64,000 nt of DNA from Dromaius novaehollandiae (lineage: Eukaryota; Chordata; Aves; Casuariiformes; Dromaiidae): positions 30,890,501-30,954,500 of the forward strand of contig NC_088106.1 in assembly GCF_036370855.1 (NCBI RefSeq). The letters are read 5' to 3'. The position numbers and the translations under genes are program-made. Positions 1 to 25,146 of this stretch are shown one piece after another. A model generated the notes under the pieces. The model worked only from the letters and a program-made list of their open reading frames with translations. It made no database searches and had not been told where the DNA came from. Numbering within the stretch: the first letter of the stretch is position 1; each line of letters begins with the position of its first letter.

Positions 1-9
1 GCCAGGAAG

Positions 10-285: not shown

Positions 286-289
286 CGCT

Positions 290-2135: not shown

Positions 2136-3260
2136 ATGACAGCAGAAGAAGACTTTCCAGGCGGCAGCGGCAGCGCCAGCTCTTCCTCTGGTGCCAGCAC
2201 CAGCCGGCTGCCTCAGGCAACACCACCGGATGCCTCTGAAGACCTGCTGTGCACCATCTGCCTGGACACAGTGGACAACGCCGCCTACGTCGCCTTCTGC
2301 ATGCACAGGTTCTGCTTTGGCTGTATCCGGCAGTGGTCAGCCACCAGAGCCCAGTGCCCGCTCTGCCAGCGGCCCTTCAGCTCCATCCTCCACACCGTGC
2401 GAGCTGACGACGACTTCCAGGAGTACCGCGTGCAGCGCTCCGACAGCAGCTCATCCCATGGCCGGCGAGGAGGGAGATCGGGTTCCCGCTCTGCGGCAAG
2501 GAGGCGGCACCGCTCGTCAGCGCCCCGGCACAGCAGCTCCTCCTCCAGCAGCTCCTCCTCCAGCAGCGATGGTGGCCACGCTGGGTCCCCTGAGAGGGCC
2601 CGAAGCAGGTCTCCAAGGCATGATCACCATGGCCACAACTGGCTTCAGCATGTAGCGAGGGGCTACGACTTCCCCAGGAGGAGCAGGCTGCGACAGAGCG
2701 GGGCTCAGGCTGCTGCTCCTGCCAGCCCTTGGGAAAGATCCCGAGCCGGGGGCCGATTGCGGCGCAGGTCACGCAGCACTGGTGGCAGCAGGAGATGGGA
2801 AGCAGCTGCTGCAGGCTGGCACCAGCATGCCTCCCCGTCGTGGGGCCACCAGGTCCCCAGGCAGGAGGACGCTCCCGGGCCCTCCTACGCCAGCTCTGCT
2901 CAGGCTCCTGTGCCAACAGCTTCTCACAGGCAAACCTCCGAGAGCTCTGCCCAGGAGCCAGCCAGCTCTGCCCCCGCAGCGCACACCCTGCCCCCGGCGC
3001 GGGGCCAAGCACGGCAGGAGCAGCAAAGGGGCCGCAGCAGCAGAAGGCAGCACAGAAGACGCGTGGAGCCTTCGCCTGCCCGGGAGAGCCACCGCAGCAG
3101 GTCCCCCAGGCGAGGCGATGAGCAGGTGCCCTCGGGGAGCACCGAGCGCCGTCAACGGGGACAAGTGCACGAGAGATGGGATTACTCCAGGGAAAGGCAC
3201 GGAGCAAGGCGCTCATCCCGGCGGAGGTCCCGCAGCCGGCCCAGGCGCAGGGGCTGGTAG
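2136..3260 (+). CDS. Topors-like RING-finger protein, gene A copy 1 (374 aa)
   Basis: The predicted protein has an N-terminal C3HC4 RING with every zinc ligand present (C39, C42, C55, H57, C60, C63, C74, C77). A poly-Ser run follows near residue 140, then a long Arg/Ser-rich tail with SRSPRR-type motifs that ends in RPRRRGW. The RING and the short block after it (RADDDFQEY) resemble Topors, a nuclear E3 ubiquitin and SUMO ligase, but Topors is about 1,000 residues, so this is a short relative. The whole frame is one exon. It starts three bases after a splice acceptor (2,132) and has an upstream noncoding exon. Nuclear location and ligase activity are inferred from the family. It has near-identical and diverged sisters at 14,832, 11,530 and 24,200. 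It is probably a real gene; expression is not shown. Confidence 0.8.
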   Translation: MTAEEDFPGGSGSASSSSGASTSRLPQATPPDASEDLLCTICLDTVDNAAYVAFCMHRFCFGCIRQWSATRAQCPLCQRPFSSILHTVRADDDFQEYRVQRSDSSSSHGRRGGRSGSRSAARRRHRSSAPRHSSSSSSSSSSSSDGGHAGSPERARSRSPRHDHHGHNWLQHVARGYDFPRRSRLRQSGAQAAAPASPWERSRAGGRLRRRSRSTGGSRRWEAAAAGWHQHASPSWGHQVPRQEDAPGPSYASSAQAPVPTASHRQTSESSAQEPASSAPAAHTLPPARGQARQEQQRGRSSRRQHRRRVEPSPARESHRSRSPRRGDEQVPSGSTERRQRGQVHERWDYSRERHGARRSSRRRSRSRPRRRGW

Positions 3261-3374
3261 CACACCGTGCAAAAGGAGCAACCCCAAAGCTTGCCCCTTG
3301 CCAGCGCACTTCAGGGCACTGCAGTGAGCCCTGGGAAAGAAAAGGATCCTTCATGCCCCTACCAGTAAACAGGG

Positions 3375-3740
3375 TTTTCCTTGAGCTTCAGAGGAATTGC
3401 TTGTGTTCCATCATGCGCCCCTTGCCTCTTGTGCTGTCCCTGGGCACCGCTGGGAAGAGTCTGGCCCCGTCTTCCTAACCCCCCAGCCCCCAGCAGGGAT
3501 TTCTGCACCTGGAGAAGATCCCCCGGAGCCTCCTCTTCTCCAGCCTGGACTCTCCCAGCTCCCTCAGCCTCTTCTCGGGCAACCGAGGCTCCAGGCCCTT
3601 CATCAGCTGCGTGGCCCTTGGCTGGACTCGCTCCCGTTCGACCACGTCCCCCTTGTCCTGGGAGCCCAGAACTGCTCCTAGGACTCCTGTCATGGTCTCC
3701 CCAGTACTGTCGGGGCAGGTGCTGCCAGGGGGGCTCCAGC
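3375..3740 (-). mobile_element. CR1 LINE fragment, antisense (unit 1)
   Basis: Read on the minus strand this is CR1 3'-region text, with the blocks around GAGAAGAGGAGGCTC and GGTGCCCAGGGACAG. It is truncated at both sides. It sits downstream of gene A and inside the right inverted-repeat arm, in opposite orientation to the CR1 at 610-975. Sequence differences show it is a separate insertion, not the inverted copy of that one. Confidence 0.75.
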
Positions 3741-3893
3741 ACATCAGCCCCCTCCCAAGCTGGCCCTGGGTGCCTCCCCCTACCCCGGGCCCCGGGGTTT
3801 CTTGAGCAGGGAGAGGGCAGTGGGGCCTGGTGCTGAGAGCGTGGGGGGACAACCGTGGGGAGCTGAACTGCTGTGGGGTGGGGCGAGGAGGCC

Positions 3894-4169
3894 GTGGGGC
3901 CCGTGGCTGGAGCCGTTCCGGGGGCAGTGCGGCAGCTGGGTTGTCCAGCATGGCTGCGGGGGCTGGAGCCCCTCGGCCTGCCCGCAGCCAGCCGGGGCTG
4001 AGCGCGGGCAGGGCGGGAGCCGGAGGGCAGCAGGGCACCGAGGCAGAGCATGGGAAGGGCCAGAGGGTGAGCAGAGATGGCTTCTCACTGCTGGCCGTGC
4101 TCTGGCCCCAGGTGTGTCCCGGGGCTGCGTGCGTGGAGGGGAGGCTGAGGGAGACTCCTCCACAAAGCC
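3894..4169. repeat. Inverted repeat flanking gene A, right arm
   Basis: Reverse complement of 10-285 at about 97 % identity over the full 276 bases. It lies downstream of gene A, beyond a minus-strand CR1 fragment. Long open frames on both strands here come from GC-rich sequence and are not supported as genes. Confidence 0.9.
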
Positions 4170-4640
4170 TCTTACAGCCTCTCCTGGGCAAAGAGCCACT
4201 GGCAGCGTTTGGGGAAAGCCCCCAGCCCTCTGCGGGCTCTGCACCCTCGCTGGGGCCACCCAGGCGGCCGCGCTGCCCCAAGGGTGCAGGGGCATTTGAG
4301 GCAGGAGCTCCCGTGTCCCTGCAGGGCACACTGGGGACGAAGCCTCGGGAAGGGTCGCTCCCCACCTCTTTCTTGTGGCAGAGCTCCGATCCCGTCGTGG
4401 AGCGGCTGCAAAGGGAGCTGGGGAGATGGCGGCTCATCTCAGCCCTCTCCAGTGCTGGCCGGGGCGGTTTCCTGGGGCTAAAATCCCAACTGCAGCAGGG
4501 ACACTCGCGGCAATGGAGAGACCCTGGAAGATGCTTGACCTGGGAAGTGAAGAGGTACTTGAAGGAGCAAATTATCACCACACCTTCTGCATGTTGGGCT
4601 GTATGCATATATATACACAGACACATGCATGGGTAGATAT
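4170..4640. other. Unique unit sequence without a recognised gene
   Basis: GC-rich sequence between the right inverted-repeat arm and the microsatellite. Several long open frames overlap on both strands, but none shows a known domain, and their openness fits the high GC content. The unit 2 counterpart is 16,866-17,335. Confidence 0.5.
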
Positions 4641-4649
4641 GTAGATGTT

Positions 4650-4650
4650 T

Positions 4651-4707
<57 letters not shown>

Positions 4708-4760
4708 TGCGTGTATATACATACATACATACATACACGTATATATATATATATATGTAC
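4650..4760. repeat. TG/CA and TA microsatellite (unit 1)
   Basis: A run of about 24 TG dinucleotides is followed by short TATG/CATA units and a run of TA. The counterpart in unit 2 (17,350-17,435) is shorter in the TG part. Confidence 0.95.
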
Positions 4761-4769
4761 ACGCACCCT

Positions 4770-5204
4770 CCTGCCCCCTGGGAACAGGGTGCGGCCTCAG
4801 CCCGATGCTGCATGTCGCCCGTCCATCCCCAGTGCTGGGAGCGCTTCACCTGCGGCGGGTCGGAGCCGCGGTCGGCAGCACGGCAGCAGTGAGGGCTGTG
4901 CCGCAAAGGGCTGGAGAACCCGTGTTTCAGCGAGGCCAGGCCGTGCCGCGCCGTACCGCACCACGCAGTGCAGTGCCGGGGGCAGACTTTTGGCGGCTGT
5001 TACGCCAAGTGGTGGTTCAGCTGTCCCGATGAACTGGGGCCGGTTCAGTTTGGGCCCTGTGCAAAACTGCCACGTGCCCCGGAGACCGCCCTGTCAAGAG
5101 GCGTGCCCCTGCCCTGTCAAGAGGTATTATTCACCTCGACTCCCAGATCCCCAGCCCCAGGCAACAGCCAGCCCTTGCTGCAGCACAACGCTACACACCA
5201 CTCA
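4770..5204. other. Unit sequence with no recognised gene; contains a 27-base repeat
   Basis: No domain is recognised. Positions 4,990-5,016 are identical to 7,031-7,057 further along the unit. From about 5,025 on, the sequence also recurs at the array border (25,358 on). The unit 2 counterpart is 17,445-17,880. Confidence 0.5.
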
Positions 5205-5440
5205 GGCTCTCCTTGAGGACTGCGAAGGCCGTGGAGCAAATCATCGTGGCCACCAGCTGCAAACATATGAAGGAGCACAAGCCGTTTGGGAGTAGTCAGC
5301 ATGGGGTTAGCATGGGGAAATCCGGCCTGACCACCCTGATAGCCTTCTGTCGTGGGATGCCTGGCTGGGTGGAGGAAGGGAGAGCAGTGGGTGTTGTTGG
5401 GTGTTGTTTCCCTTGAATTCAGCCTGGCTTTTGGTGCCTC
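5205..5440 (+). mobile_element. CR1 LINE reverse-transcriptase fragment, sense (unit 1)
   Basis: The text around GTAGTCAGCATGG, GGGAAATCCGGCCTGACCA and CTTGAATTCAGCCTGGCTTTTG is the part of CR1 ORF2 just before the reverse-transcriptase core. It stops abruptly at about 5,440, where unit-specific GC-rich sequence begins. In the border copy the same CR1 continues for over a kilobase. Confidence 0.75.
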
Positions 5441-5499
5441 CATGGCCAGCAGTCTGCTGTTTACCTCAATGGGACCACCTCGATGTTGGGTGGCGCTGC

Positions 5500-6330
5500 C
5501 GGTCGCTCCGGATGCCCAGGGGCCTGGGGGGAGGCCCTCGAGCGCCGCCCCTCCATCGCGGGCCCAGCCGGGCACGGAGAGCAGCGAGTGCTCGTGTCTG
5601 TGAGGCGGCTGCCCCTGCGGGACGAGAGCTGGGGGGTCACGGCGGGGCCCAGCTCCCCCCACCGTGCTGCCTGCACCCGGGGCCACCGCCTCTCCCTCGC
5701 ACCACGGCCTGGTCTCCTCATGGCCCCCGGTGAGCCCCGTGTGCCCCCCAAGGCCTGCTCGTCCCCCCGGAGCCTTCCATGGCCTGCTTGTCCCCCCAAC
5801 CGCCCCCCAAGGCCCGCTGCCCCCCACAAGGCCTCCTCGCCCCCCCCTCGCCTTCCCCAACGGCCCGGCCCCACCCGCCGCGTCCCGGACCGGCCCCCCG
5901 GCGCGGCGCGGCGCGGCGCCACCCGGCGCCACCCAGCAGTTGAGGCGGCGGACGCCATCGAGGGCGGCGGCCTCGGCGCGGCCCAGCACGGCCGCCCGCG
6001 TCAGCCTCAGGGCGCCGCCGCCGAACCGCCGCCGTCACCGTCGCCAGGGCCGCGGCCGCCGTCGCCAGGGCCGCCGTCGCCAGGGCCGCCGTTGCCGCTG
6101 CCGTCGCCAGGGCCGCGGCGGCCGCGCTCCGCCCCCGGGCCGGGCCGGGCCGGGCCGGGCCGGGCCGAGCCGGGCCGGGGCGGCCCCGAGCCGCCTGCAG
6201 CGGCGCCGCGCCGGGCGCCCTCGGCCTTCCCGTCCCGCTCTCCGGCCTCAGCGCCTCCCCGGGGCCGTGCGGGAGTCTCGGGGGCTCCGGGTCGCTTGTG
6301 CTGAACTCGGGAGATCGTCGTGTGCCAAGG
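5500..6330. promoter_or_regulatory. CpG island with GGGCC repeats (unit 1)
   Basis: CpG is very dense, most strongly from 5,860 to 6,300. A 15-base tandem repeat (core GTCGCCAGGGCCGCC) runs at about 6,045-6,120 and a GGGCC tract at 6,136-6,180. The tract has four or more G-triplets with two-base loops, which fits a G-quadruplex motif. A good GT donor context (GCCAAG before GTGAGAG) lies at about 6,331, so a first exon could end there. No downstream exon partner was identified. The long frames here are low-complexity and I do not call them genes. Confidence 0.6.
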
Positions 6331-7560
6331 TGAGAGTTGGTTAGAGCCAAGAGGTTAGAGCAAAGCTGAGAATAGAGAGATATGTATCAGAGCTCCGCGG
6401 TTCAATCACGGGTGCCCGGGACGAGGACGGCTCTCGCCCTTCCCTTGAGGGCCACCCCTTGGGTAGAGCCTGCCCAGTTTCCCCAACAGCGGGCGCCCGG
6501 CACAGCGACGGCTCCCGCCCCTTACGGGCCCCCTTTCGGTCTGATTCCCCGGCTTCTCCTCACCACGCTGGTGACATCCGGGGCGTCCCCGCTGCCAGGT
6601 GGGTCCTGGGGTCCACAGGGCCGCTGACCGTGGGCCCGAGCCCCCACCGAGCCCCCACCAAGCACGTGTGCCTTGGTCCCTGTTACACCCGGGCCGAGCA
6701 ACGCCAGCCCACGGCCGTAGCAAGGCCGCGGGCTCCAGCCGGGACCAGCGTGCGCATCAGCAGGTGACTGGTGCTCAGCCCACACGCTGCGCAGCGGGAA
6801 GCAACACGCCCATTAGCAGGTGGCTGTGCCGGCAATGGCTCCACAGCGCCGAGATGTCCGTGCTGTGGGTCTGCGGTGTCGCTTCTCCCTGGTCTGCACT
6901 TGTCAATCACGGGTTCGTTACAGGGTGTGCCAGCAGGCTGTTGCAACCCCACAGCGTGGCGGCCCAGCCTTGGTGCACCCGGGCTTCCTTAACACTTGGG
7001 AAGCACCCCAGAGCAAGCCCCTCTACAGCCTTGGCGGCTGTTACGCCAAGTGGTGGTCCACAACTGCTCTCGGGTCCTTCGGCTCCTGTGGCAGGGGCAG
7101 CTGGGAAGGAGCTTTCAGCGCTTGTGTCTGTCAGGGCAGAAATGTCTGAGCCTGCGGATGGCTGTGCCCGTCGCTGGGGCTCCCCGACCACCCGCGGCTC
7201 CCCAGGGCTTGGTCTCAGGGGCACCGCTGTGCTTGCTGCACAAGGCTGGCTCTGTTTGTTAGCGATCTCGGTGTGGTGCTCAGCATGCAGCTGGGTCCCC
7301 TGCTGCTGCCTTCTGGGTGCTGCCAGGCAGGTCGTTCTGGGGAGCCGCTGGCATCCTTGGCCCCTCCACGGCAGACAGCCAGGTCCCCGCCAGCGTCTGT
7401 CAGGTGGCAGTTGGCAGGGCTGCAGCCTGACCGGGGAGCTGAGGCGCCGGCGAGAGCCGTCTTGGTCGTGCCCCAGGTCTGCTCTCATTCACCCACAAAC
7501 CGCTCTTCTTCTTCAGCACAGGCACCGCTGTGTGCTTGCGAGGGAGCGTGAGGCGCCCCG
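6331..7560. other. Unit sequence between CpG island and gene B, no recognised gene
   Basis: No protein domain or RNA gene is recognised. The stretch contains two similar GC-rich blocks near 6,400 and 6,490 and the 27-base repeat at 7,031-7,057. The unit 2 counterpart is 18,997-20,226. Confidence 0.45.
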
Positions 7561-7953
7561 GGCGAGGAGCCCAGCTCGCCGATGCGGGCAGCACGGGAGG
7601 ATGCAGGCGACGGGAGGAGCTGTCGCGCAGGATGTTCCCCGTTGTGCACGGACTGACGTGTGCAGGTGAGCTGTGCTGCTGCAAGGCAGGCAGGCAGTGT
7701 GGACAGCAGTGGCGGGTGTGGGCACTGCTTGGGTCTGCCTCGATGCAACGCTTCAGGGTGAGTGAGGATGGGGGAGAAGAAGAAGACACGAGGGGGACCC
7801 CTTTCCCCACGCAGACCAGAGGCCAGGCCTCAGCTGTCGTCCCTGCCTGGTTCCTCATCACGCCCTAGCCCACCCATTCCCTCTTTCTGCTTTCTCCTCC
7901 TTTCGTTGCCAGGACAGCTCACACAAGCTCTCTGTCTCTTTCCTTTCTAGCAC

Positions 7954-8208
7954 ATGATGTCTTCAGAAGAGGACTTTCCAGAGGATGCCAGCTTTTCCTC
8001 CGGCATCAGCACCAGCCGGCTGCAGCAGGAAATGCCGCCAGATGCCTCCAAAGACCTGCGGTGCTCCATCTGCCTCAACACACTTGACGACACCGCCTAC
8101 ATCACCGTCTGCATGCACCGGTTCTGCTACGGCTGCATCCGGCAGATATGCAGGCGACGGGAGGAGCTGTCGGGTGAGTGCCCCCCAGCAGCGAGGGAGC
8201 AAAGCTAA
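7954..8208 (+). pseudogene. Topors-like RING gene B copy 1, broken inside the RING (84 aa)
   Basis: Gene B has the family layout: a noncoding first exon with a donor at 7,758, an intron, an acceptor at 7,950, and an ATG three bases into the coding exon. The RING starts normally (C37, C40, C53, H55, C58, C61). After the residues CIRQ it leaves the family sequence and stops 20 residues later, losing the last zinc pair and the Arg/Ser tail. The replacing sequence contains 25 bases (8,148-8,172) that are identical to part of this gene's own upstream region (7,601-7,625). A GT donor-like site follows at about 8,174, so splicing to a distant exon cannot be excluded, but none was found. Most likely a pseudogene made by a local rearrangement before the tandem duplication. 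Confidence 0.75.
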
Positions 8209-8559
8209 AGCCCGAGGTGGCACGGGGGGGCCTGAGCAGCCTGCTCCCAGGGCCTCGGCTGTGCCTGCGGTGTGCGCAGCAGGGGGTCCCCCAGCGGTGC
8301 CTTCCTCCTTCTGGAGGCATGGTGGCCCTGGGAGCATCTGCAAAGCCCCAGGTCCAAGGTGGTTGGAGGGGGGCTGTTTCTGGGGCTGTGCAATGGGTGC
8401 AGGTGCTGCGCTGCAGAGGCAGCAGCTGGCGCATGCTCCACCCACAGGAAAGGCCCGTGCGCTCAAAGAAGCAGGAGCGCAGTTACAGCTGAGCTCCGGG
8501 GTGGGCCAGCCTCAGGGACATCCCCTCTGCTGTCCCTCTGCCCGGAGATGCTTTGGCAA
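8209..8559. other. Sequence between gene B and the CR1, no recognised gene
   Basis: I see no family sequence and no domain here. Any lost 3' part of gene B is not visible. The unit 2 counterpart is 20,879-21,229. Confidence 0.4.
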
Positions 8560-9735
8560 ACCACAGGATCACCGAATCACCAAAGAATGGTTGGGGTTGG
8601 AAGGGACCTCCGGAGAGCCTCTAGTCCAGCCTCCCTGCTCAAGCAGGGTCCCCTAGAGCAGCTTAGTCAGCACCCTGTCCAGGTGCCTTTGCAATAGCTC
8701 CAAGGATGGAGCCTCCACAACGTCTCTGGGCAACCTCTTGCAGTGCTCTGGCACCCTCACACGAGGAAAGTTGTTCCTTCTGTTCAGACGCAACTTCCTG
8801 TGTTTCGCTTGGTGCCCGCTGCCTCTCGTCCTGTCCCTGGGCACCACTGAAGAGAGCCTGCCACCATCCTCTTTACACCCTCCCCTCAGTTATTTATCGG
8901 CATCGATAAGATTCCCCCATCAGTCTTCGCTCCTCCAGGCTCCACAGGCCCAGCTCTCCCAGCCTTTCCTCACAGCAGAGATGCTCCAGTCCCTTCCTCC
9001 TCTTCGGAGCCCTTTGCTCCACTGGCTCCACATCTGTCTTGTACTGCGGAGCTCCGAACTGGACACAGTACGCCAGGGCTGGCCTCAGCAGGGTGGCTGA
9101 GGAGAGCACATCACCTGCCTGGACCTGCTGGCAAGGCTCTGCTCTTCCTAATGCAGCCCAGGATGCCATTGACTGCCCTTGCCGCAAGGGCCCATTGCTG
9201 GCTCATGGTCCACTTGTTGCCCCCCAGGACTCCCAGGTCCTGCTCGGCAGAGCTGCTTCCCAGCAGGTCGGGCCCAGCATGTCCTGCTGCCTGCGCTTAG
9301 TCCTCCCCAGGAGCAGGACTCTTCTGCGCTTCCCTTGAGTGAACTTCAGCAGGGTCCTCTCTGCCCATTTCTCCACACGGGCGAGGTCCCTCTCAATGGC
9401 AGCACAGGCCTCTGCTGCATCAGCCACTCCTCCCAGCTTTGCCCAACCAGCAAACTTGCTGAGGGTACACTCTGTCCCTTCGTCCAGGGCACTGATGAAC
9501 AAGTTGAACAGCATGGCACCCAGCAGTGACCCCTGGGGTACACCGTGCGCTACAGGCCTCCAGCTAGACTTTGCGCCATGGATCCCAACCCTCTGAGCTC
9601 TGCCACTCAGCCAGTTTTCAAGCCACCTCACTGTCTTGCCTGTGAGCATGGTACAGCAGAAGTGTCAAAAGCCTTCCGGAAGTTGTCAGGAGCAACAGAC
9701 ACCGCTCTTGCCTCGTCGACCAGCACAGTCATTTC
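8560..9735 (-). mobile_element. CR1 LINE, antisense, with reverse-transcriptase remnant (unit 1)
   Basis: The 3' end of the element is at the left (GAATGGTTGGGGTTGGAAGG is the hallmark, read antisense). The minus-strand frame 9,203-9,649 encodes a decayed reverse-transcriptase segment with VPQGSLLG, LFNLFI and ALDEGTECTLSKFA. The catalytic FADD-type motif reads FAGW, so it is inactive. The left part is the CR1 3' region and untranslated sequence. The 5' part of the element is missing. Confidence 0.88.
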
Positions 9736-10310
9736 ACCCCAGAAGGCCCTCAGGTGGGAGGGGGCCAGGGCGCTTGGGGCAGGGCACCACAAAGGCCTTG
9801 GGCCAAGCATGCTTGCAAGGAGGGAGAAAAGGCAGCGTGGACAGGAAAGCCTTGGCAGGACCTGCCGAGTCCTCTGCCTTTTGCCCAGGCCTCTTCCCAC
9901 GCCCAGGAGGCCAAGGTTGGTGTCAGCCGCAGAGGGGCACAGGAGCACATGGCTCCCCAGATGGGTCGGACCTGCCAGGAGGAAAACACACAGGCGCTGC
10001 TGGAGGTCTCTGTAGCGCAGCCACCGCTGGAGCAGCCCAGGGAGCCGGGAGCTTCTGGAGATGAGGCCAAGTGCCACCGGGCAGCTCTGAGCCCCCCAGC
10101 AGCCCCTGTTTCATCGTGCCCTGCCCCGTCGTTCCCAGGACATGGGCCAGGCACCTCCATCAGCAGGCTGTGCCAGGCAATGCTGCTGGAGGCCACTTGA
10201 GATCTGTCCTGCCCTCCCCATCTGCACACTTCTGACGTCCCCTAGGGAGGCTTTGGCTTTTCCCCTCTTGTGTCCAATACACCCGCAGGCACTTGCCGAG
10301 TTGTGCTTCT
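9736..10310. other. Sequence between the CR1 and gene C, no recognised gene
   Basis: Open frames occur on both strands but none shows a known domain. The unit 2 counterpart is 22,406-22,980. Confidence 0.4.
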
Positions 10311-11025
10311 GCACAACAAGCAACACACCCCAACTGCTGAATGCAGAACAGGCTTTTTTATGGTGCTGGGCTGGGGGGTGGAGGAAAGAGAGGGAAGGTT
10401 GTGCTGGACTCTTGGGCAAAAAAAGCTGTCCACTTCACCACCACGACTCTGGCTGGATTTGGTCACCCTGACAGTTGGCAGCGTTTGACTTGACCTCTGC
10501 CGAAAGAGGAGAGGACGAGAAATAACTGCACAACTCGGAGACCTGCACTAACATCCAGCCTCCGACTGCCAGTGCAGCCAAGGCAAAGCCGGGCACAGCC
10601 CCAAGCAGCAACAGCCCCACGCGGAAAGCAGAGAGTTCCTGTGACTCCCGTGACATCACCGCTTGGAGGCAGCCGCACAGTGGGGACCCCCGCACTTAGC
10701 CCCAAGCTCCGCGCTGGGTGGCATGCGAGGCGTCCAGGGCCCGGCAGGGTCACGGCTTTGCGTTTGGGGCTTTGCTCTGCGGCCAGCAGCAGCTCTGCCT
10801 GGCTGACTCGGGGGCTGTGGACCCCGCGCGGCTGCTGTCCAGCGGCCAGGGGCGCCCAGAGGGTGCCAAGAGTGTTGGGGAGCCCTGAAGGCTCACGGGG
10901 TGTTCCCTGTTGTGCACGGACTGACGTCTGCAGGTGAGCTGTGCTGCTGCAAGGCAGGCAGGCAGCGTGGGCGGCAGTGGCGGGTGTGGGCACTGCTTGG
11001 GTCTGCCTTGATGCAACGCTTCAGG
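10310..11025 (+). promoter_or_regulatory. Upstream region and noncoding first exon of gene C
   Basis: This region is related to the gene A upstream region (about 995-1,800), which shows that A and C arose by an older local duplication. It lacks about 110 bases of the A promoter, including the palindromic CRE, but keeps TGACATCA near 10,650. The first exon ends at the GT donor at 11,026; an alternative donor lies near 10,934. Unit 2 counterpart: 22,980-23,695. Confidence 0.6.
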
Positions 11026-11529
11026 GTGAGGATGGGGGAGAAGAAGAAGACGCGAGGGGGCCCCTTTCCCCATGCAGACCAGAGGACAGGCCTCAGCTGC
11101 CGTCCCTGCAGAGAGCCTGGTTCCTCGGCACGCCTTAGCCCACCCGCTCCCTCTGCCCTGGGCTTCCTTGGCCTCACTGGGTGGGGAGCACCTTTCCCCT
11201 GGGACCGTCTCTGCTCAAGGGGAAGTGTTCTTGGGGGGAAACCCAGGCCTTGTTGTCTGCCTTGACTTCAGGAAGGCTGCGCTGTACCTCAGCGGTCAAG
11301 ATGGGCCCCAGTCCTGTTCAACACAACCTCAGCCCTTCTGGGACTCTCTGATTGTCAGAGTCGGGGGGGCTCTCGCATGACTTGCTAATGGTGCTTGTGC
11401 TGCTTCCTCGCAGCCCTGAAGAAGACTGGGCAGCTCCTTGGCTCTTGACTCCCACAGCTTTTCTGCTTTCTCCACCCTTCATTGCCAGGACAGCTCACAC
11501 AAGCTCTCTGTCTCTTTCCTTTCTAGCAC

Positions 11530-12291: not shown

Positions 12292-12470
12292 AACCCCCCA
12301 CTTCCAGCAGCTGCCTGGGGCCTCGGGGCAGATCCGGACGAGGGCAGCAGGAGCTGCAGTGCCCATCGCTGGCAAACACCAGGCTGAAACAACGCAGCAG
12401 ACTCGAGCAGACAGCCTGGGTGCCTGTGAGCCTCCTGTGCCTCCTGCTGTGTTGGGCCAGGTGCTTAATT

Positions 12471-12476
12471 AATAAA
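12471..12476 (+). terminator. Polyadenylation signal of gene C copy 1
   Basis: AATAAA about 180 bases after the stop codon of gene C, kept in unit 2. Confidence 0.65.
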
Positions 12477-14129: not shown

Positions 14130-14831
14130 CCGCTTGGAGGCAGCCGCACAGTGGGGACCCCCGCACTTAGCCCCAAGCTCCGCGCTGGGTGGCACGCGAG
14201 GCGTCCAGGGCCCGGCAGGGTCACGGCTTTGCGTTTGGGGCTTTGCTCTGCGGCCAGCAGCAGCTCTGCCTGGCTGACTCGGGGGCTGTGGACCCCGCGC
14301 GGCTGCTGTCCCGCGGCCGGGGGCGCCCAGAGGGTGCCAAGAGCGTTGGGGAGCCCTGAAGGCTCACGGGGTGTTCCCTGTTGTGCACGGACTGACGTCT
14401 GCAGGTGAGCTGTGCTGCTGCAAGGCAGGCAGGCAGCGTGGGCGGCAATGGCGGGTGTGGGCACTGCTTGGGTCCGCCTTGATGCAGCGCTTCAGGGTGA
14501 GGCTGGGGGAGAAGAAGTCCCCCTCACCCCGTAGCCCGTAGCCCACCCGGTGCCTTTTCCCCAGCCTTCCTTGCCCTCGCTGGCTGGCAACGCCCTTCCC
14601 CCAGGACCTCCCCTGCTCCAGGGGAAGCATTGCTGGGCAAAGCCAGAGCCGGAGGGGAGTCTTTTAGGGGGGCCTTTACACTGCCTCCCAAATGGGGCTT
14701 CTGCTGCTTCCTTGCAGCCTTCAAGAAGCCTGGGCAGCTCTTTGGCTCTCCACCTCCACAGCTTTCCTGCTTTCTCCTCCCTTTGTCTCCAGGAAAGGTC
14801 CCGAGCTCCAGGTCTCTTTCCTTTGTAGAAC

Positions 14832-15956: not shown

Positions 15957-16070
15957 CACACCGTGCAAAAGGAGCAACCCCAAAGCTTGCCCCTTGCCAG
16001 CACACTTCAGGGCACTGCAGTGAGCCCTGGGAAAGAAAAGGATCCTTCATGCCCCTACCAGTAAACAGGG

Positions 16071-16436
16071 TTTTCCTTGAGCTTCAGAGGAATTGCTTGT
16101 GTTCCATCATGCGCCCCTTGCCTCTTGTGCTGTCCCTGGGCACCGCTGGGAAGAGTCTGGCCCCGTCTTCCTAACTCCCCAGCCCCCAGCAGGGATTTCT
16201 GCACCTGGAGAAGATCCCCCGGAGCCTCCTCTTCTCCAGCCTGGACTCTCCCAGCTCCCTCAGCCTCTTCTCGGGCAACCGAGGCTCCAGGCCCTTCATC
16301 AGCTGCGTGGCCCTTGGCTGGACTCGCTCCCGTTCGACCATGTCCCCCTTGTCCTGGGAGCCTAGAACTGCTCCTAGGACTCCTGTCATGGTCTTCCCAG
16401 TACTGTCGGGGCAGGTGCTGCCAGGGGGACTCCAGC
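16071..16436 (-). mobile_element. CR1 LINE fragment, antisense (unit 2)
   Basis: Unit 2 copy of the fragment at 3,375-3,740, with a handful of base differences. Confidence 0.75.
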
Positions 16437-16589
16437 ACATCAGCCCCCTCCCAAGCTGGCCCTGGGTGCCTCCCCCTACCCCGGGCCCCGGGGTTTCTTG
16501 AGCAGGGAGAGGGCAGTGGGGCCTGGTGCTGAGAGCGTGGGGGGACAACCGTGGGGAACTGAGCTGCTGTGGGGTGGGGCGGGGAGGCC

Positions 16590-16865
16590 GTGGGGCCCGT
16601 GGCTGGAGCCATTCCGGGGGCAGTGCGGCAGCTGGGTTGTCCAGCATGGCTGCAGGGGCTGGAGCCCCTCGGCCTGCCCGCAGCCAGCCGGGGCTGAGCG
16701 CGGGCAGGGCGGGAGCCGGAGGGCAGCAGGGCACCGAGGCAGAGCATGGGAAGGGCCAGAGGGTGAGCAGAGATGGCTTCTCACTGCTGGCCGTGCTCTG
16801 GCCCCAGGTGTGTCCCGGGGCTGCGTGCGTGGAGGGGAGGCTGAGGGAGACTCCTCCACAAAGCC
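16590..16865. repeat. Inverted repeat flanking gene A copy 2, right arm
   Basis: Unit 2 counterpart of 3,894-4,169, in reverse complement to 12,702-12,981. Confidence 0.88.
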
Positions 16866-17349
16866 TCTTACAGCCTCTCCTGGGCAAAGAGCCACTGGCA
16901 GCGTTTGGGGAAAGCCCCCGGCCCTCTGCGGGCTCTGCACCCTCGCTGGGGCCACCCAGGCAGCCGCGCTGCCCCAAGGGTGCAGGGGCATTTGAGGCAG
17001 GAGCTCCCGTGTCCCTGCAGGGCACACTGGGGACGAAGCCTCGGGAAGGGTCGCTCCCCACCTCTTTCTTGTGGCAGAGCTCCGATCCCGTCGTGGAGCG
17101 GCTGCAAAGGGAGCTGGGGAGATGGCGGCTCATCTCAGCCCTCTCCAGTGCTGGCCGGGGCGGTTTCCTGGGGCTAAAATCCCAACTGCAGCAGGGACAC
17201 TCGCGGCAATGGAGAGACCCTGGAAGATGCTTGACCTGGGAAGTGAAGAGGTACTTGAAGGAGCAAATTATCACCACACCTTCTGCATGTTGGGCTGTAT
17301 GCATATATATACACATAGACACATGCATGGGTAGATATGTAGATGTTTA

Positions 17350-17350
17350 C

Positions 17351-17386
<36 letters not shown>

Positions 17387-17435
17387 GCGTGTATATACAT
17401 ACATACATACACACACGTATATATATATATATGTA
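17350..17435. repeat. TG/CA and TA microsatellite (unit 2)
   Basis: Same compound repeat as at 4,650-4,760, with about 13-14 TG units before the first interruption. Confidence 0.95.
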
Positions 17436-17876
17436 CACGCACCCTCCTGCCCCCTGGGAACAGGGTGCGGCCTCAGCCCGATGCTGCATGTCGCCCGTCC
17501 ATCCCCGGTGCTGGGAGCGCTTCACCTGCGGCGGGTCGGAGCCGCGGTCGGCAGCACGGCAGCAGTGAGGGCTGTGCCGCAAAGGGCTGGAGAACCCGTG
17601 TTTCAGCGAGGCCAGGCCGTGCCGCGCCGTACCGCACCACGCAGTGCAGTGCCGGGGGCAGACTTTTGGCGGCTGTTACGCCAAGTGGTGGTTCAGCTGT
17701 CCCGATGAACTGGGGCCGGTTCAGTTTGGGCCCTGTGCAAAACTGCCACGTGCCCCGGAGACCGGGGAACTCAGGACACACCACCTCCAGGCCCCTGCCC
17801 TGTCAAGAGGTATTATTCACCTCGACTCCCAGATCCCCAGTCCCAGGCAACAGCCAGCCCTTGCTGCAGCACAACG

Positions 17877-18126
17877 CTACACACCACTCAGGCTCTCCTT
17901 GAGGACTGCGAAGGCCGTGGAGCAAATCATCGTGGCCACCAGCTGCAAACATATGAAGGAGCACAAGCCGTTTGGGAGTAGTCAGCATGGGGTTAGCATG
18001 GGGAAATCCGGCCTGACCACCCTGATAGCCTTCTGTCGTGGGATGCCTGGCTGGGTGGAGGAAGGGAGAGCAGTGGGTGTTGTTGGGTGTTGTTTCCCTT
18101 GAATTCAGCCTGGCTTTTGGTGCCTC
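17877..18126 (+). mobile_element. CR1 LINE reverse-transcriptase fragment, sense (unit 2)
   Basis: Unit 2 copy of 5,205-5,440, with the same abrupt right end. Confidence 0.75.
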
Positions 18127-18185
18127 CATGGCCAGCAGTCTGCTGTTTACCTCAATGGGACCACCTCGATGTTGGGTGGCGCTGC

Positions 18186-18996
18186 CGGTCACTCCGGATG
18201 CCCAGGGGCCTGGGGGGAGGCCCTCGAGCGCCGCCCCTCCGTCGCGGGCCCAGCCGGGCACAGAGAGCAGCGAGTGCTCGTGTCTGTGAGGCGGCTGCCC
18301 CTGCGGGACGAGAGCTGGGGGGTCACGGCGGGGCCCAGCTCCCCCCACCGTGCTGCCTGCACCCGGGGCCACCGCCTCTCCCTCGCGCCACGGCCTGGTC
18401 TCCTCATGGCCCCCGGTGAGCCCCGTGTGCCCCCCAAGGCCTGCTCGTCCCCCCGGAGCCTTCCATGGCCTGCTTGTCCCCCCAACCGCCCCCCAAGGCC
18501 CGCTGCCCCCCACAAGGCCTCCTCGCCCCCCCCTCGCCTTCCCCAACGGCCCGGCCCCACCCGCCGCGTCCCGGACCGGCCCCCCGGCGCGGCGCGGCGC
18601 GGCGCCACCCGGCGCCACCCAGCAGTTGAGGCGGCGGACGCCATCGAGGGCGGCGGCCTCGGCGCGGCCCAGCACGGCCGCCCGCGTCAGCCTCAGGGCG
18701 CCGCCGCCGAACCGCCGCCGTCACCGTCGCCAGGGCCGCGGCCGCCGTCGCCAGGGCCGCCGTCGCCAGGGCCGCCGTTGCCGCTGCCGTCGCCAGGGCC
18801 GCGGCGGCCGCGCTCCGCCCCCGGGCCGGGCCGGGCCGGGCCGGGGCGGCCCCGAGCCGCCTGCAGCGGCGCCGCGCCGGGCGCCCTCGGCCTTCCCGTC
18901 CCGCTCTCCGGCCTCAGCGCCTCCCCGGGGCCGTGCGGGAGTCTCGGGGGCTCCGGGTCGCTTGTGCTGAACTCGGGAGATCGTCGTGTGCCAAGG
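18186..18996. promoter_or_regulatory. CpG island with GGGCC repeats (unit 2)
   Basis: Copy of the island at 5,500-6,330, with fewer GGGCC units at about 18,822-18,847 and the same donor-like site at about 18,997. Confidence 0.6.
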
Positions 18997-20623
18997 TGAG
19001 AGTTGGTTAGAGCCAAGAGGTTAGAGCAAAGCTGAGAATAGAGAGATATGTATCAGAGCTCCGCGGTTCAATCACGGGTGCCCGGGACGAGGACGGCTCT
19101 CGCCCTTCCCTTGAGGGCCACCCCTTGGGTAGAGCCTGCCCAGTTTCCCCAACAGCGGGCGCCCGGCACAGCGACGGCTCCCGCCCCTTACGGGCCCCCT
19201 TTCGGTCTGATTCCCCGGCTTCTCCTCACCACGCTGGTGACATCCGGGGCGTCCCCGCTGCCAGGTGGGTCCTGGGGTCCACAGGGCCGCTGACCGTGGG
19301 CCCGAGCCCCCACCGAGCCCCCACCAAGCACGTGTGCCTTGGTCCCTGTTACACCCGGGCCGAGCAACGCCAGCCCACGGCCGTAGCAAGGCCGCGGGCT
19401 CCAGTCGGGACCAGCGTGCGCATCAGCAGGTGACTGGTGCTCAGCCCACACGCTGCGCAGCGGGAAGCAACACGCCCATTAGCAGGTGGCTGTGCCGGCA
19501 ATGGCTCCACAGCGCCGAGATGTCCGTGCTGTGGGTCTGCGGTGTCGCTTCTCCCTGGTCTGCACTTGTCAATCACGGGTTCGTTACAGGGTGTGCCAGC
19601 AGGCTGCTGCAACCCCACAGCGTGGCGGCCCAGCCTTGGTGCACCCGGGCTTCCTTAACACTTGGGAAGCACCCCAGAGCAAGCCCCTCTACAGCCTTGG
19701 CGGCTGTTACGCCAAGTGGTGGTCCACAACTGCTCTCGGGTCCTTCGGCTCCTGTGGCAGGGGCAGCTGGGAAGGAGCTTTCAGCGCTTGTGTCTGTCAG
19801 GGCAGAAATGTCTGAGCCTGCGGATGGCTGTGCCCGTCGCTGGGGCTCCCTGACCACCCGCGGCTCCCCAGGGCTTGGTCTCAGGGGCACCGCTGTGCTT
19901 GCTGCACAAGGCTGGCTCTGTTTGTTAGCGATCTCGGTGTGGTGCTCAGCATGCAGCTGGGTCCCCTGCTGCTGCCTTCTGGGTGCTGCCAGGCAGGTCG
20001 TTCTGGGGAGCCGCTGGCATCCTTGGCCCCTCCACGGCAGACAGCCAGGTCCCCGCCAGCGTCTGTCAGGTGGCAGTTGGCAGGGCTGCAGCCTGACCGG
20101 GGAGCTGAGGCGCCGGCGAGAGCCGTCTTGGTCGTGCCCCAGGTCTGCTCTCATTCACCCACAAACCGCTCTTCTTCTTCAGCACAGGCACCGCTGTGTG
20201 CTTGCGAGGGAGCGTGAGGCGCCCCCGGTGAGGAGCCCAGCCCGCCGATGCGGGCAGCACGGGAGGATGCAGGCGACGGGAGGAGCTGTCGCGCAGGATG
20301 TTCCCCGTTGTGCACGGACTGACGTGTGCAGGTGAGCTGTGCTGCTGCAAGGCATGCAGGCAGGCAGTGTGGACAGCAGTGGCGGGTGTGGGCACTGCTT
20401 GGGTCTGCCTCGATGCAACGCTTCAGGGTGAGTGAGGATGGGGGAGAAGAAGAAGACACGAGGGGGACCCCTTTCCCCACGCAGACCAGAGGCCAGGCCT
20501 CAGCTGTCGTCCCTGCCTGGTTCCTCATCACGCCCTAGCCCACCCATTCCCTCTTTCTGCTTTCTCCTCCTTTCGTTGCCAGGACAGCTCACACAAGCTC
20601 TCTGTCTCTTTCCTTTCTAGCAC

Positions 20624-20878
20624 ATGATGTCTTCAGAAGAGGACTTTCCAGAGGATGCCAGCTTTTCCTCCGGCATCAGCACCAGCCGGCTGCAGCAGGA
20701 AATGCCGCCAGATGCCTCCAAAGACCTGCGGTGCTCCATCTGCCTCAACACACTTGACGACACCGCCTACATCACCGTCTGCATGCACCGGTTCTGCTAC
20801 GGCTGCATCCGGCAGATATGCAGGCGACGGGAGGAGCTGTCGGGTGAGTGCCCCCCAGCAGCGAGGGAGCAAAGCTAA
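20624..20878 (+). pseudogene. Topors-like RING gene B copy 2, broken inside the RING (84 aa)
   Basis: The coding frame is identical to that of the copy at 7,954-8,208, with the same break after CIRQ and the same 25-base piece of upstream sequence. The break therefore predates the duplication of the unit. Six of the eight zinc ligands remain. A 4-base insertion lies in the noncoding first exon near 20,355. Confidence 0.75.
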
Positions 20879-21229
20879 AGCCCGAGGTGGCACGGGGGGG
20901 CCTGAGCAGCCTGCTCCCAGGGCCTCGGCTGTGCCTGCGGTGTGCGCAGCAGGGGGTCCCCCAGCGGTGCCTTCCTCCTTCTGGAGGCATGGTGGCCCTG
21001 GGAGCATCTGCAAAGCCCCAGGTCCAAGGTGGTTGGAGGGGGGCTGTTTCTGGGGCTGTGCAATGGGTGCAGGTGCTGCGCTGCAGAGGCAGCAGCTGGC
21101 GCATGCTCCACCCACAGGAAAGGCCCGTGCGCTCAAAGAAGCAGGAGCGCAGTTACAGCTGAGCTCCGGGGTGGGCCAGCCTCAGGGACATCCCCTCTGC
21201 TGTCCCTCTGCCCGGAGATGCTTTGGCAA

Positions 21230-22405
21230 ACCACAGGATCACCGAATCACCAAAGAATGGTTGGGGTTGGAAGGGACCTCCGGAGAGCCTCTAGTCCAGC
21301 CTCCCTGCTCAAGCAGGGTCCCCTAGAGCAGCTTAGTCAGCACCCTGTCCAGGTGCCTTTGCAATAGCTCCAAGGATGGAGCCTCCACAACGTCTCTGGG
21401 CAACCTCTTGCAGTGCTCTGGCACCCTCACACGAGGAAAGTTGTTCCTTCTGTTCAGACGCAACTTCCTGTGTTTCGCTTGGTGCCCGCTGCCTCTCGTC
21501 CTGTCCCTGGGCACCACTGAAGAGAGCCTGCCACCATCCTCTTTACACCCTCCCCTCAGTTATTTATCGGCATCGATAAGATTCCCCCATCAGTCTTCGC
21601 TCCTCCAGGCTCCACAGGCCCAGCTCTCCCAGCCTTTCCTCACAGCAGAGATGCTCCAGTCCCTTCCTCCTCTTCGGAGCCCTTTGCTCCACTGGCTCCA
21701 CATCTGTCTTGTACTGCGGAGCTCCGAACTGGACACAGTACGCCAGGGCTGGCCTCAGCAGGGTGGCTGAGGAGAGCACATCACCTGCCTGGACCTGCTG
21801 GCAAGGCTCTGCTCTTCCTAATGCAGCCCAGGATGCCATTGACTGCCCTTGCCGCAAGGGCCCATTGCTGGCTCATGGTCCACTTGTTGCCCCCCAGGAC
21901 TCCCAGGTCCTGCTCGGCAGAGCTGCTTCCCAGCAGGTCGGGCCCAGCATGTCCTGCTGCCTGCGCTTAGTCCTCCCCAGGAGCAGGACTCTTCTGCGCT
22001 TCCCTTGAGTGAACTTCAGCAGGGTCCTCTCTGCCCATTTCTCCACACGGGCGAGGTCCCTCTCAATGGCAGCACAGGCCTCTGCTGCATCAGCCACTCC
22101 TCCCAGCTTTGCCCAACCAGCAAACTTGCTGAGGGTACACTCTGTCCCTTCGTCCAGGGCACTGATGAACAAGTTGAACAGCATGGCACCCAGCAGTGAC
22201 CCCTGGGGTACACCGTGCGCTACAGGCCTCCAGCTAGACTTTGCGCCATGGATCCCAACCCTCTGAGCTCTGCCACTCAGCCAGTTTTCAAGCCACCTCA
22301 CTGTCTTGCCTGTGAGCATGGTACAGCAGAAGTGTCAAAAGCCTTCCGGAAGTTGTCAGGAGCAACAGACACCGCTCTTGCCTCGTCGACCAGCACAGTC
22401 ATTTC
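21230..22405 (-). mobile_element. CR1 LINE, antisense, with reverse-transcriptase remnant (unit 2)
   Basis: Unit 2 copy of 8,560-9,735 with the same decayed reverse-transcriptase frame (21,873-22,319) and the same changed catalytic motif. Confidence 0.88.
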
Positions 22406-24199
22406 ACCCCAGAAGGCCCTCAGGTGGGAGGGGGCCAGGGCGCTTGGGGCAGGGCACCACAAAGGCCTTGGGCCAAGCATGCTTGCAAGGAGGGAGAAAA
22501 GGCAGCGTGGACAGGAAAGCCTTGGCAGGACCTGCCGAGTCCTCTGCCTTTTGCCCAGGCCTCTTCCCACGCCCAGGAGGCCAAGGTTGGTGTCAGCCGC
22601 AGAGGGGCACAGGAGCACATGGCTCCCCAGATGGGTCGGACCTGCCAGGAGGAAAACACACAGGCGCTGCCGGAGGTCTCTGTAGCGCAGCCACCGCTGG
22701 AGCAGCCCAGGGAGCCGGGAGCTTCTGGAGATGAGGCCAAGTGCCACCGGGCAGCTCTGAGCCCCCCAGCAGCCCCTGTTTCATCGTGCCCTGCCCCGTC
22801 GTTCCCAGGACATGGGCCAGGCACCTCCATCAGCAGGCTGTGCCAGGCAATGCTGCTGGAGGCCACTTGAGATCTGTCCTGCCCTCCCCATCTGCACACT
22901 TCTGACGTCCCCTAGGGAGGCTTTGGCTTTTCCCCTCTTGTGTCCAATACACCCGCAGGCACTTGCCGAGTTGTGCTTCTGCACAACAAGCAACACACCC
23001 CAACTGCTGAATGCAGAACAGGCTTTTTTATGGTGCTGGGCTGGGGGGTGGAGGAAAGAGAGGGAAGGTTGTGCTGGACTCTTGGGCAGAAAAAGCTGTC
23101 CACTTCACCACCACGACTCTGGCTGGATTTGGTCACCCTGACAGTTGGCAGCGTTTGACTTGACCTCTGCCGAAAGAGGAGAGGACGAGAAATAACTGCA
23201 CAACTCGGAGACCTGCACTAACATCCAGCCTCCGACTGCCAGTGCAGCCAAGGCAAAGCCGGGCACAGCCCCAAGCAGCAACAGCCCCACGCGGAAAGCA
23301 GAGAGTTCCTGTGACTCCCGTGACATCACCGCTTGGAGGCAGCCGCACAGTGGGGACCCCCTCACTTAGCCCCAAGCTCCGCGCTGGGTGGCACGCGAGG
23401 CGTCCAGGGCCCGGCAGGGTCACGGCTTTGCGTTTGGGGCTTTGCTCTGCGGCCAGCAGCAGCTCTGCCTGGCTGACTCGGGGGCTGTGGACCCCGCGCG
23501 GCTGCTGTCCAGCGGCCAGGGGCGCCCAGAGGGTGCCAAGAGTGTTGGGGAGCCCTGAAGGCTCACGGGGTGTTCCCTGTTGTGCACGGACTGACGTCTG
23601 CAGGTGAGCTGTGCTGCTGCAAGGCAGGCAGGCAGCGTGGGCGGCAGTGGCGGGTGTGGGCACTGCTTGGGTCTGCCTTGATGCAACGCTTCAGGGTGAG
23701 GATGGGGGAGAAGAAGAAGACGCGAGGGGGCCCCTTTCCCCATGCAGACCAGAGGACAGGCCTCAGCTGCCGTCCCTGCAGAGAGCCTGGTTCCTCGGCA
23801 CGCCTTAGCCCACCCGCTCCCTCTGCCCTGGGCTTCCTTGGCCTCACTGGGTGGGGAGCACCTTTCCCCTGGGACCGTCTCTGCTCAAGGGGAAGTGTTC
23901 TTGGGGGGAAACCCAGGCCTTGTTGTCTGCCTTGACTTCAGGAAGGCTGCGCTGTACCTCAGCGGTCAAGACGGGCCCCAGTCCTCTTCAACACAACCTC
24001 AGCCCTTCTGGGACTCTCTGATTGTCAGAGTCGGGGGGCCTCTCGCATGACTTGCTAATGGTGCTTGTGCTGCTTCCTCGCAGCCCTGAAGAAGACTGGG
24101 CAGCTCCTTGGCTCTTGACTCCCACAGCTTTTCTGCTTTCTCCACCCTTCGTTGCCAGGACAGCTCACACAAGCTCTCTGTCTCTTTCCTTTCTAGCAC

Positions 24200-24961
24200 A
24201 TGATGTCTTCAGAAGAGGACACCAGCTTTTCCCCTGGTGCCAGCACCAGCCGGCTGCAGCAGGAAATGCCGCCAGATGCCTCCAAAGACCTGCGGTGCTC
24301 CATCTGCCTCAACACACTTGACAACACCGCCTACGTCACTGTCTACACGCACCGGTTCTGCTACGGCTGCATCCGGCAGTGGTCAGCCACCAGAGCCCAG
24401 TGCCCGCTCTGCCAGCGGCCTTTCCGCTCCGTCCACACGGGGCCACCTGACAACAGCTCCCAGGCGGATGGCACCAGGCGCTCCTTGGCCGGCCAGCGAC
24501 GAGGGAGAGTTCATTCCCGCTCTGCAGCGAGCACAGCCCGAAGCAGGTCCCCCAGGGGCAACCGCGATGGCCCCAGCAGGCTTCCGCGCCAGAGGGGCTA
24601 CGACTCCCCAGCGAGGAGCAGGCGGTGGCCAAGCAGGGCTCAGGCAACCGCTCATGCTGACCGCTGGGCAAGACCCCCAGCCAGGGGCCGATTACGGCAG
24701 AGGTCCCGCAGCACCCGCGGCAGCAGACGGGAAGCACCTTCTCCAGGCTGCCACCGCAGCAGGTGCCCCAGGAGAGGCAACGACCTCCACGAGGGATTTA
24801 TGCTCAGGGCGGTTCGCGAGACCCCAGCTTGCTGGGGGAGGCAGAGGAGCATGGCTCACAGTGACATGCTAGCTCCTAACGTCAAAATGGAAGTGGTGGC
24901 CTTATTTCTTATATTCTCATGCAACATTCTGTTATTTTTCCATTTCCACAGGTTCTTCTAG
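24200..24961 (+). CDS. Topors-like RING-finger protein, gene C copy 2 (253 aa)
   Basis: Same layout as the gene at 11,530-12,291, including Tyr in place of the third RING ligand. The two copies differ at several RING and post-RING residues (D to N, Q to R, E to Q, H to R, I to V, M to T, H to N) within about 150 bases. They also differ strongly over about 140 bases before the hydrophobic tail, although the flanks are almost identical. The tail stays open and hydrophobic here as well (VVALFLIFSCNILLFF). An intron ending near 24,951 is the alternative reading of this end. Confidence 0.7.
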   Translation: MMSSEEDTSFSPGASTSRLQQEMPPDASKDLRCSICLNTLDNTAYVTVYTHRFCYGCIRQWSATRAQCPLCQRPFRSVHTGPPDNSSQADGTRRSLAGQRRGRVHSRSAASTARSRSPRGNRDGPSRLPRQRGYDSPARSRRWPSRAQATAHADRWARPPARGRLRQRSRSTRGSRREAPSPGCHRSRCPRRGNDLHEGFMLRAVRETPACWGRQRSMAHSDMLAPNVKMEVVALFLIFSCNILLFFHFHRFF

Positions 24962-25140: not shown

Positions 25141-25146
25141 AATAAA
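25141..25146 (+). terminator. Polyadenylation signal of gene C copy 2
   Basis: AATAAA in the same position as at 12,471 in unit 1. Confidence 0.65.

Follow-up and report, generated by a model that had tools for sequence, protein, structure and literature searches.

TOPORS has been reported as a SUMO-targeted ubiquitin ligase (PMC11402782), and "E3 ubiquitin-protein ligase Topors-like" is the annotation name of a chicken gene (PMC7563548). For other birds, topors is given among the genes checked by quantitative PCR in duck embryonic gonads (PMC9643717) and TOPORS appears in bird-brain gene sets (PMC11439032). The human USP17/DUB genes, which lie in the RS447 macrosatellite, have been described as ubiquitin-system genes in a tandem repeat that has expanded independently and keeps many of its frames intact (PMC2874809). 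Among birds, amplified genes have been reported on chicken dot chromosomes, with a testis bias on seven of ten, together with HINT1W, of which a unit of 5,648 bp is copied 52 times (PMC9974502), and PHF7 is reported to have expanded in turkey and chicken (PMC10360393). Here we describe a window, meaning the whole analysed stretch of 64,000 nucleotides, from Dromaius novaehollandiae (C9:30890501-30954500, where C9 is our designation for contig NC_088106.1, of 36.19 Mb in a genome of 1.468 Gb), in which short Topors-like genes of three types, A, B and C, occupy the end of a large tandem array. This kind of gene is known and its large amplification here is real; a limited literature search with TOPORS terms yielded no description of the amplification, a result which says little about work beyond that search.

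The genes descend from TOPORS by copying at the DNA level and have been amplified in tandem with their frames open. The RING of the A type is intact, the zinc site of the C type is broken, the B type is truncated, and some tracts have been homogenised among copies. To the interpretation that these loci form a macrosatellite-borne family of TOPORS-derived RING ubiquitin-ligase genes, in which the central domain has been lost, we assign somewhat better than an even chance. The coding loci in the window, and the tandem units which carry them, are as follows.

1..12635, forward strand: second-last tandem unit A-B-C of array 1, 98.8% identical to 12693-25305, with its left end outside the window.
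12693..25305, forward strand: last tandem unit A-B-C of array 1, the array edge lying at about 25305.
2133..2138, forward strand: AAC-ATG directly after the A1 AG acceptor, as in TOPORS on contig C35.
2136..3260, forward strand: A1 coding exon of 374 codons, with a TOPORS-type N-terminus, an intact RING, an Arg/Ser-rich tail and no lysine.
2250..2366, forward strand: A1 RING core from first to last zinc ligand (C39-C77), with eight ligands present.
14832..15956, forward strand: A2, the second A gene, 374 codons, with a RING identical to that of A1.
7954..8208, forward strand: B1, a truncated copy of 84 codons with its ATG at 7954; it ceases to be homologous to A and C at 8145, mid-RING.
20624..20878, forward strand: B2, a truncated copy with its ATG at 20624 and coding DNA identical to that of B1.
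11530..12291, forward strand: C1 coding exon of 253 codons, with Tyr for the third zinc ligand.
24200..24961, forward strand: C2 coding exon of 253 codons, with Tyr for the third zinc ligand; the common C type.

The TOPORS gene of the same genome was located at C35:16.54 Mb; its open frame has 1004 codons, and its identity to a human fragment is 76%. Contig C35, of 86 Mb, is probably the Z chromosome, and TOPORS is Z-linked in chicken. The RING exon starts as TTTTGTAG|AAC ATG ACT TCA GCA GAG in TOPORS and as CTTTGTAG|AAC ATG ACA GCA GAA GAA in A, and the two proteins are 47% identical over 145 amino acids of N-terminus and RING (E 2e-37). They also have in common the block HTVRA.DDF.EY downstream of the RING and a second collinear block, PGPSY..TSES, at residues 222-284 of A and 332-394 of TOPORS (33%, E 1e-6). 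Overall, TOPORS resembles A in its AG|AACATG start, the N-terminal pattern S..ASTS.L.Q..P.DAS, a C3HC4 RING with SI.HTVRA.DDF.EY, the PGPSY..TSES block and an Arg/Ser-rich tail, so that the label "Topors-like" in the first-pass annotation of this DNA is strongly supported by the shared acceptor, N-terminus, RING, downstream block and second block. The C and B types share the acceptor and N-terminal part with the TOPORS family, and the AG acceptor three bases before the ATG is present in all six window loci.

For TOPORS residues of about 105 to 330 (exon numbering), which constitute the central domain, no clear counterpart was found in A. On this comparison A is most readily understood as a copy of TOPORS, made at the DNA level and including the intron boundary, from which the central domain has been deleted internally. 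In contrast to TOPORS, A has 374 rather than 1004 codons, lacks the central domain and any pattern of the SUMO-interacting-motif (SIM) type, is mostly lysine-free and is tandemly amplified, and because neither the central domain nor the SIM is found in it, the names TOPORS and SUMO-targeted ligase are inappropriate for A. Other Topors-like genes which match the TOPORS central domain occur at C18:2472019 and C17:18298278, and weaker, partly broken matches are present on contigs C1 and C35, several of these genes and fragments having stops; judged by these matches, this bird has undergone repeated duplication of TOPORS. The genes on contigs C17 and C18 are TOPORS-derived and carry, as A does, a RING with LDT.DN.AYV and FCFGC, whereas the relatives on contigs C17, C18, C1 and C35 differ from A in matching the TOPORS central domain, in keeping the RING lysines and in being scattered. 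Since the A RING is 56% identical to that of TOPORS and 57-59% identical to the C17/C18 type, neither is singled out as the direct parent.

The scale of the amplification emerged from a search of the whole assembly for a 21-base RING-core signature with at most one mismatch, which gave 188 sites, 184 forward and 4 reverse, compared with 0 for the reversed control. This number equals the total of the array-1 genes, 54 of type A and 56 of type C, and the 78 A-like copies at 31.66-32.38 Mb, and the sites beyond array 1 are assigned to array 2 because the totals match, the first places given all being in array 1. A genome search with the A protein (110 of 10,047 candidates scored) found the 54 array-1 A copies at C9:30.453-30.906 Mb, with frames of 375 codons, stop included, in 42, of 363 in one and of 409 in 11, and no internal stop listed. 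A search with the C protein (best 150 of 392 candidates scored) found 56 full-length C copies without a stop, all in array 1. Array 1 extends over C9:30.44-30.92 Mb, starting near 30.445 Mb and ending at window position 25305, and it continues to the left of the window with a C at C9:30889187 and an A at 30886395. The other A-like copies show 86-87% identity and form one block at 31.68-31.99 Mb (array 2a, 42 forward) and another at 32.23-32.38 Mb (array 2b, 32 forward), with four more in reverse orientation; none of the full-length C matches listed falls in array 2, which seems to hold the A type alone.

The 55 C-to-C spacings in array 1 comprise 35 of 6.09-6.35 kb, 19 of 12.5-12.95 kb and one of 3.6 kb, and in the 200 kb that were read each of the seven long spacings contains a B, which is absent from the other fifteen. 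Spacing is mostly 7.33 kb in array 2a (with two of 10.24) and 4.73-4.74 kb in array 2b. The arrays, of about 150 to 470 kb, consist of tandem kilobase units that each carry an open frame, as in a gene-bearing macrosatellite of the RS447/D4Z4 kind. In an array-2a unit (L041:181-396) a second, partial A-like stretch occurs upstream of the full copy and matches window 2275-2509 at 82.6%. Individual copies were read for 36 of the 54 A and 25 of the 56 C genes in array 1 and for 4 of the 78 copies in array 2, and the counts below refer to these.

All six related loci that the first-pass annotation had placed at 2136-24961 exist there, and its reading of a family of six that arose by doubling reflects an edge effect, the window being the right-hand end of an array of about 470 kb which alone contains 54 A and 56 C copies. 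Between the two units in the window there are 100 substitutions and 7 indel events. Identity is 98.8% between these units and 76-80% between the coding exons of A and C across alignable stretches, which makes the A/B/C split older than the unit doubling. The proposed order, an older triplication and then doubling, is therefore upheld, whereas its scale falls far short of the 188 RING-signature copies in the genome.

Like USP17 in RS447, these arrays hold a ubiquitin-system gene in a tandem repeat in which many frames are intact and expansion has been independent. USP17 is, however, a deubiquitinase, whereas the A family is a predicted ligase whose genes probably have a noncoding exon and an intron upstream, and an array-1 unit holds two or three unequal paralogues. 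As with the chicken amplicons, HINT1W and PHF7, bird genes have been amplified into arrays; those amplicons are on dot chromosomes or the W, whereas the Topors-like arrays lie at 30.4-32.4 Mb on a 36 Mb contig.

Although a RING had been attributed to all six genes, only that of A is intact, because C carries Tyr at ligand 3 and B stops mid-RING. The C3HC4 RING with its eight zinc ligands is present in 36/36 A copies read and scores 36.4 bits against PF00097 (cut-off 21; E 4.6e-9) and 36.7 bits against PF13639 (cut-off 27.3). The A2 gene differs from A1 by 10 substitutions, 8 of them counted as nonsynonymous, all after codon 97. An Arg/Ser-rich tail, likewise ascribed to all six, is present in A and C and absent from B. 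In A1, with 18% Arg and 18% Ser, the SR/RS pairs of the tail show no excess over composition (475 of 2000 shuffles reach the count). Lysine is absent from A1, compared with 7.9 expected from codon-position composition, from 33 of 36 A copies overall, three having one, and each of the four array-2 copies also has one. Lysine deserts have been described in ubiquitin-system proteins (PMC10665810), which A resembles in its near-absence of lysine; in this Arg/Ser-rich, G+C-rich gene the loss may be compositional. No SIM-type pattern ([VIL][VIL]x[VIL] or its reverse) was found in A1 or in any of the 36 A copies. Structure prediction for A, made from four window sequences, failed, with a mean predicted local distance difference test score (pLDDT) of 41 and a predicted template modelling score (pTM) of 0.13.

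In C the third RING ligand is replaced by Tyr (VYTH compared with FCMH in A) in C1, C2 and 25/25 of the copies read, and the RING still scores above the Pfam cut-off although it lacks one ligand. The C2 tail has SR/RS pairs beyond composition (1 of 2000 shuffles reaches the count) and two SIM-type pattern matches near the C-terminus. The C1 and C2 coding exons differ by 28 substitutions. Conversion of one of them by A was considered as the source of this divergence and rejected, since C1 is one of four C copies that are only 92% identical to C2, which makes older diversity among C genes likelier. A perfect hairpin, ACCTCCACGAG..CTCGTGGAGGT, lies at 12113-12143 in C1; a group of clustered bases is different there in C2, and the change looks like a template switch. 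Each B copy is flanked by an exact 25-base repeat (7601-7625 and 8148-8172; 20267-20291 and 20818-20842), which resembles the target-site duplication left when a fragment is inserted, here a fragment of a C-type gene with its shortened intron still inside.

Upstream DNA containing the putative noncoding first exon is common to A, B and C, with B keeping a remnant.

1404..1708, forward strand: A1 promoter and noncoding first-exon region, extending to the stronger donor, 1708|1709, with no ATG inside.
14100..14404, forward strand: A2 promoter and exon-1 region.
10629..10933, forward strand: C1 promoter and exon-1 region.
23299..23603, forward strand: C2 promoter and exon-1 region.
7630..7665, forward strand: B1 exon-1 remnant with the same CAG|GTGAGC donor.
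1395..1402, forward strand: octamer TGACGTCA upstream of A1, with a copy at 14091 and absent from C.

The donor 1800|1801, proposed earlier for exon 1, remains a candidate and is weaker (7/9 consensus) than 1708|1709, whose CAG|GTGAGC fits at 8/9 and occurs also in B and C. A promoter/exon-1 tract of 418 bp is 97.8% identical between A1 (1404-1821) and C1 (10629-11046) and 96.9% identical between C and array 2 (array-2a stretch L041:2796-3213). This far exceeds the 76-80% of the A and C coding exons, a pattern indicative of patchy homogenisation across paralogues and arrays. The octamer TGACGTCA, which we take to be a cAMP-response-element (CRE) octamer, was rejected as a meaningful element because it is too weak, about one being expected by chance in 64 kb.

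Under the ligase-family interpretation, a TOPORS-derived ligase gene, shortened by loss of the central domain, would have become the coding content of a macrosatellite, and unequal exchange together with gene conversion would have expanded it into three tandem arrays on contig C9. The A RING would bind a ubiquitin-charged E2, and A would mark nuclear targets met through its Arg/Ser tail. Having no SIM-type motifs, A would not read poly-SUMO as TOPORS does and, having no lysines, it would resist self-ubiquitination, while C would be catalytically weak or dead. The high copy number could provide a high, tissue-restricted dosage, most likely in germ cells. A germ-line or genetic-conflict function, which the first-pass annotation had suggested as frequent in such amplified gene sets, is plausible only by analogy; taken as a whole, its observation was partly confirmed and its interpretation gains partial support.

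Evidence in favour of the ligase-family interpretation comes from the state of the frames. No internal stop occurs in 36/36 A or 25/25 C copies, and over these 61 copies about 7.3 disabling changes were expected (4.0 stops and 3.3 frameshifts) and none was seen (P about 7e-4), in tests which, like the others here, treat variants as independent. The stop expectation derives from codon content. The frameshift expectation derives from the noncoding indel density, for which exon 1, the intron and the 3' flank, together 1,915 bp, gave 5 gap events; the upstream stretch was excluded because its gaps fall at alignment ends. A single A variant scored as a stop against the consensus proved to come from one copy in which codon 221 is changed at two bases and reads CAG, such that no copy carries a stop. 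In the 66 codons of the A RING, 36 array-1 copies show no nonsynonymous and one silent variant. For the 29 copies of the 374-codon form, about 9 nonsynonymous RING variants were expected at tail density, and the RING has 5 variants per kb where the tail has 65, the 3' flank 77 and the promoter/exon-1 tract 79; the number of variants expected in the RING was 12.8 (deficit P 4e-5). Between array 1 and the array-2 copies read, the RING has none of 10.8 expected nonsynonymous differences, while the A tails differ at about 7% of nonsynonymous sites.

Several results weigh against the ligase-family interpretation, in which the ligase activity and the expression of A are predictions. The 335-bp intron beside the RING is equally poor in variants (4, with about 26 expected), which rules out selection alone as the cause of RING invariance, and because this adjoining intron is just as uniform, homogenisation contributes to the uniformity of the RING. 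Synonymous RING differences between array 1 and array 2 are also absent (3.8 expected, P 0.02), so that uniformity between the arrays could reflect either purifying selection with conversion or conversion alone, and at least part of the RING uniformity is due to conversion or a recent sweep. Elsewhere the ratio of nonsynonymous to synonymous variants (N:S) is 36:17 in the A tail and 40:16 in C, compared with neutral expectations of 36.7:15.1 and 39.0:15.3, respectively. Residues shared with TOPORS are kept in the RING core at four positions in A and none in C, a difference that is not significant (0.125), and neither AATAAA nor ATTAAA was found within 1.5 kb of the A stop. Moreover, in the A-protein search 52 of 56 array-2 rows carry TGA. 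That these stops inactivate array 2 throughout was rejected, since where read the stop is late, at codon 320 or 334, after the RING, in 2 of 4 copies; three array-2 rows of the C-protein search (31841266, 31855924, 31659253) have TGA within the stretch matching residues 10-123, and some array-2 copies may therefore be broken in or near the RING. The late stops seem to mark two sub-arrays, with open frames of 320, 334 or 369 codons in array 2, and each appears to have spread with its own sub-array.

Many of these observations would be accounted for if the arrays were a passenger macrosatellite, in which a shortened TOPORS duplicate sits in an expanding repeat, its frames being intact because the array is young and homogenised and its proteins being invisible to selection. 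We consider this the main rival, a real possibility and nevertheless clearly less probable than a ligase family. The N:S ratios are neutral outside the A RING; the promoter, intron and RING tracts are homogenised patchwise; C, with its broken zinc site, is kept at full copy number; three array-2 rows have a TGA within the first 123 or so residues; and other TOPORS duplicates of the genome include several with stops. Similarity is also highest between nearby copies, a pattern that unequal exchange would produce (Mantel p 0.001 in both A and C). Less easily reconciled with a passenger are the lack of any stop or frameshift in 61 copies and the absence of amino-acid change in the A RING between arrays whose tails have diverged.

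Another possibility is that A is an active ligase tuned by C, which has almost the N-terminus and RING surface of A but lacks one zinc ligand and would act as a competitor or dominant-negative partner amplified along with it, an arrangement that we regard as unlikely. It would fit an A:C ratio of 54:56 in array 1, the Tyr found in every C copy read with 56 C frames listed as open, and A and C promoters that are far closer than the coding exons. However, a near 1:1 ratio follows automatically from co-duplication within the unit, C codons vary neutrally even in the RING (N:S 7:4), and the full-length C matches listed are confined to array 1. In a fuller form, which is likewise rather doubtful, 54 genes for an active, lysine-free, SUMO-blind ligase and 56 zinc-site-defective sisters, under nearly identical promoters, would form an enzyme and decoy pair whose unit was expanded by a germ-line dosage conflict, the active type alone having expanded separately about 1 Mb away.

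It is considerably less probable that the repeat itself is what matters, at the level of DNA, chromatin or RNA as has been proposed for some human macrosatellites, with the open frames incidental. Unit-sized tandem arrays of this length would suit such a role. When A, C and array 2 are compared, little of the DNA is better preserved than the promoter/exon-1 tract, yet it varies like the flanks among array-1 A copies; in addition, every A copy read has kept its frame, and the indels observed in A, of +34 and -12 codons, are in frame. Capture of a viral RING gene of the herpesvirus ICP0 type, for which the best solved-structure match of A (the equine herpesvirus RING 1chc, E 3e-12) might speak, was dropped as extremely improbable after comparison with host TOPORS, which shares with A the splice acceptor, the N-terminus and the second block outside the RING, and 1chc may win by default because no molecule named TOPORS was among the 40 sequences in the search output.

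Other features of the locus include, in each unit, an inverted repeat of 283 bp (7-288 and 3891-4173; 96%) and a reverse-transcriptase-like fragment on the reverse strand (9203-9649; PF00078, E 3.5e-5, under the Pfam cut-off), presumably a remnant of a CR1 retrotransposon. To the right of the array lies a BTB-BACK-Kelch gene (38619-43472), and from the gene order on this side we assume that the flank corresponds to the ESPNL-KLHL30-ERFE region.

Macrosatellites that carry genes are difficult to assemble and have seldom been studied; the content of the one described here is a reduced TOPORS whose RING core is present in 188 copies. Should the proteins not be made, the arrays would provide a clear case of open frames surviving through homogenisation. 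If they are made, a single bird would carry more than 100 genes for a ligase without its SUMO-reading part together with dozens of zinc-site-defective relatives, and the arrays would constitute a natural test of RING dosage in nuclei and of why such arrays grow.

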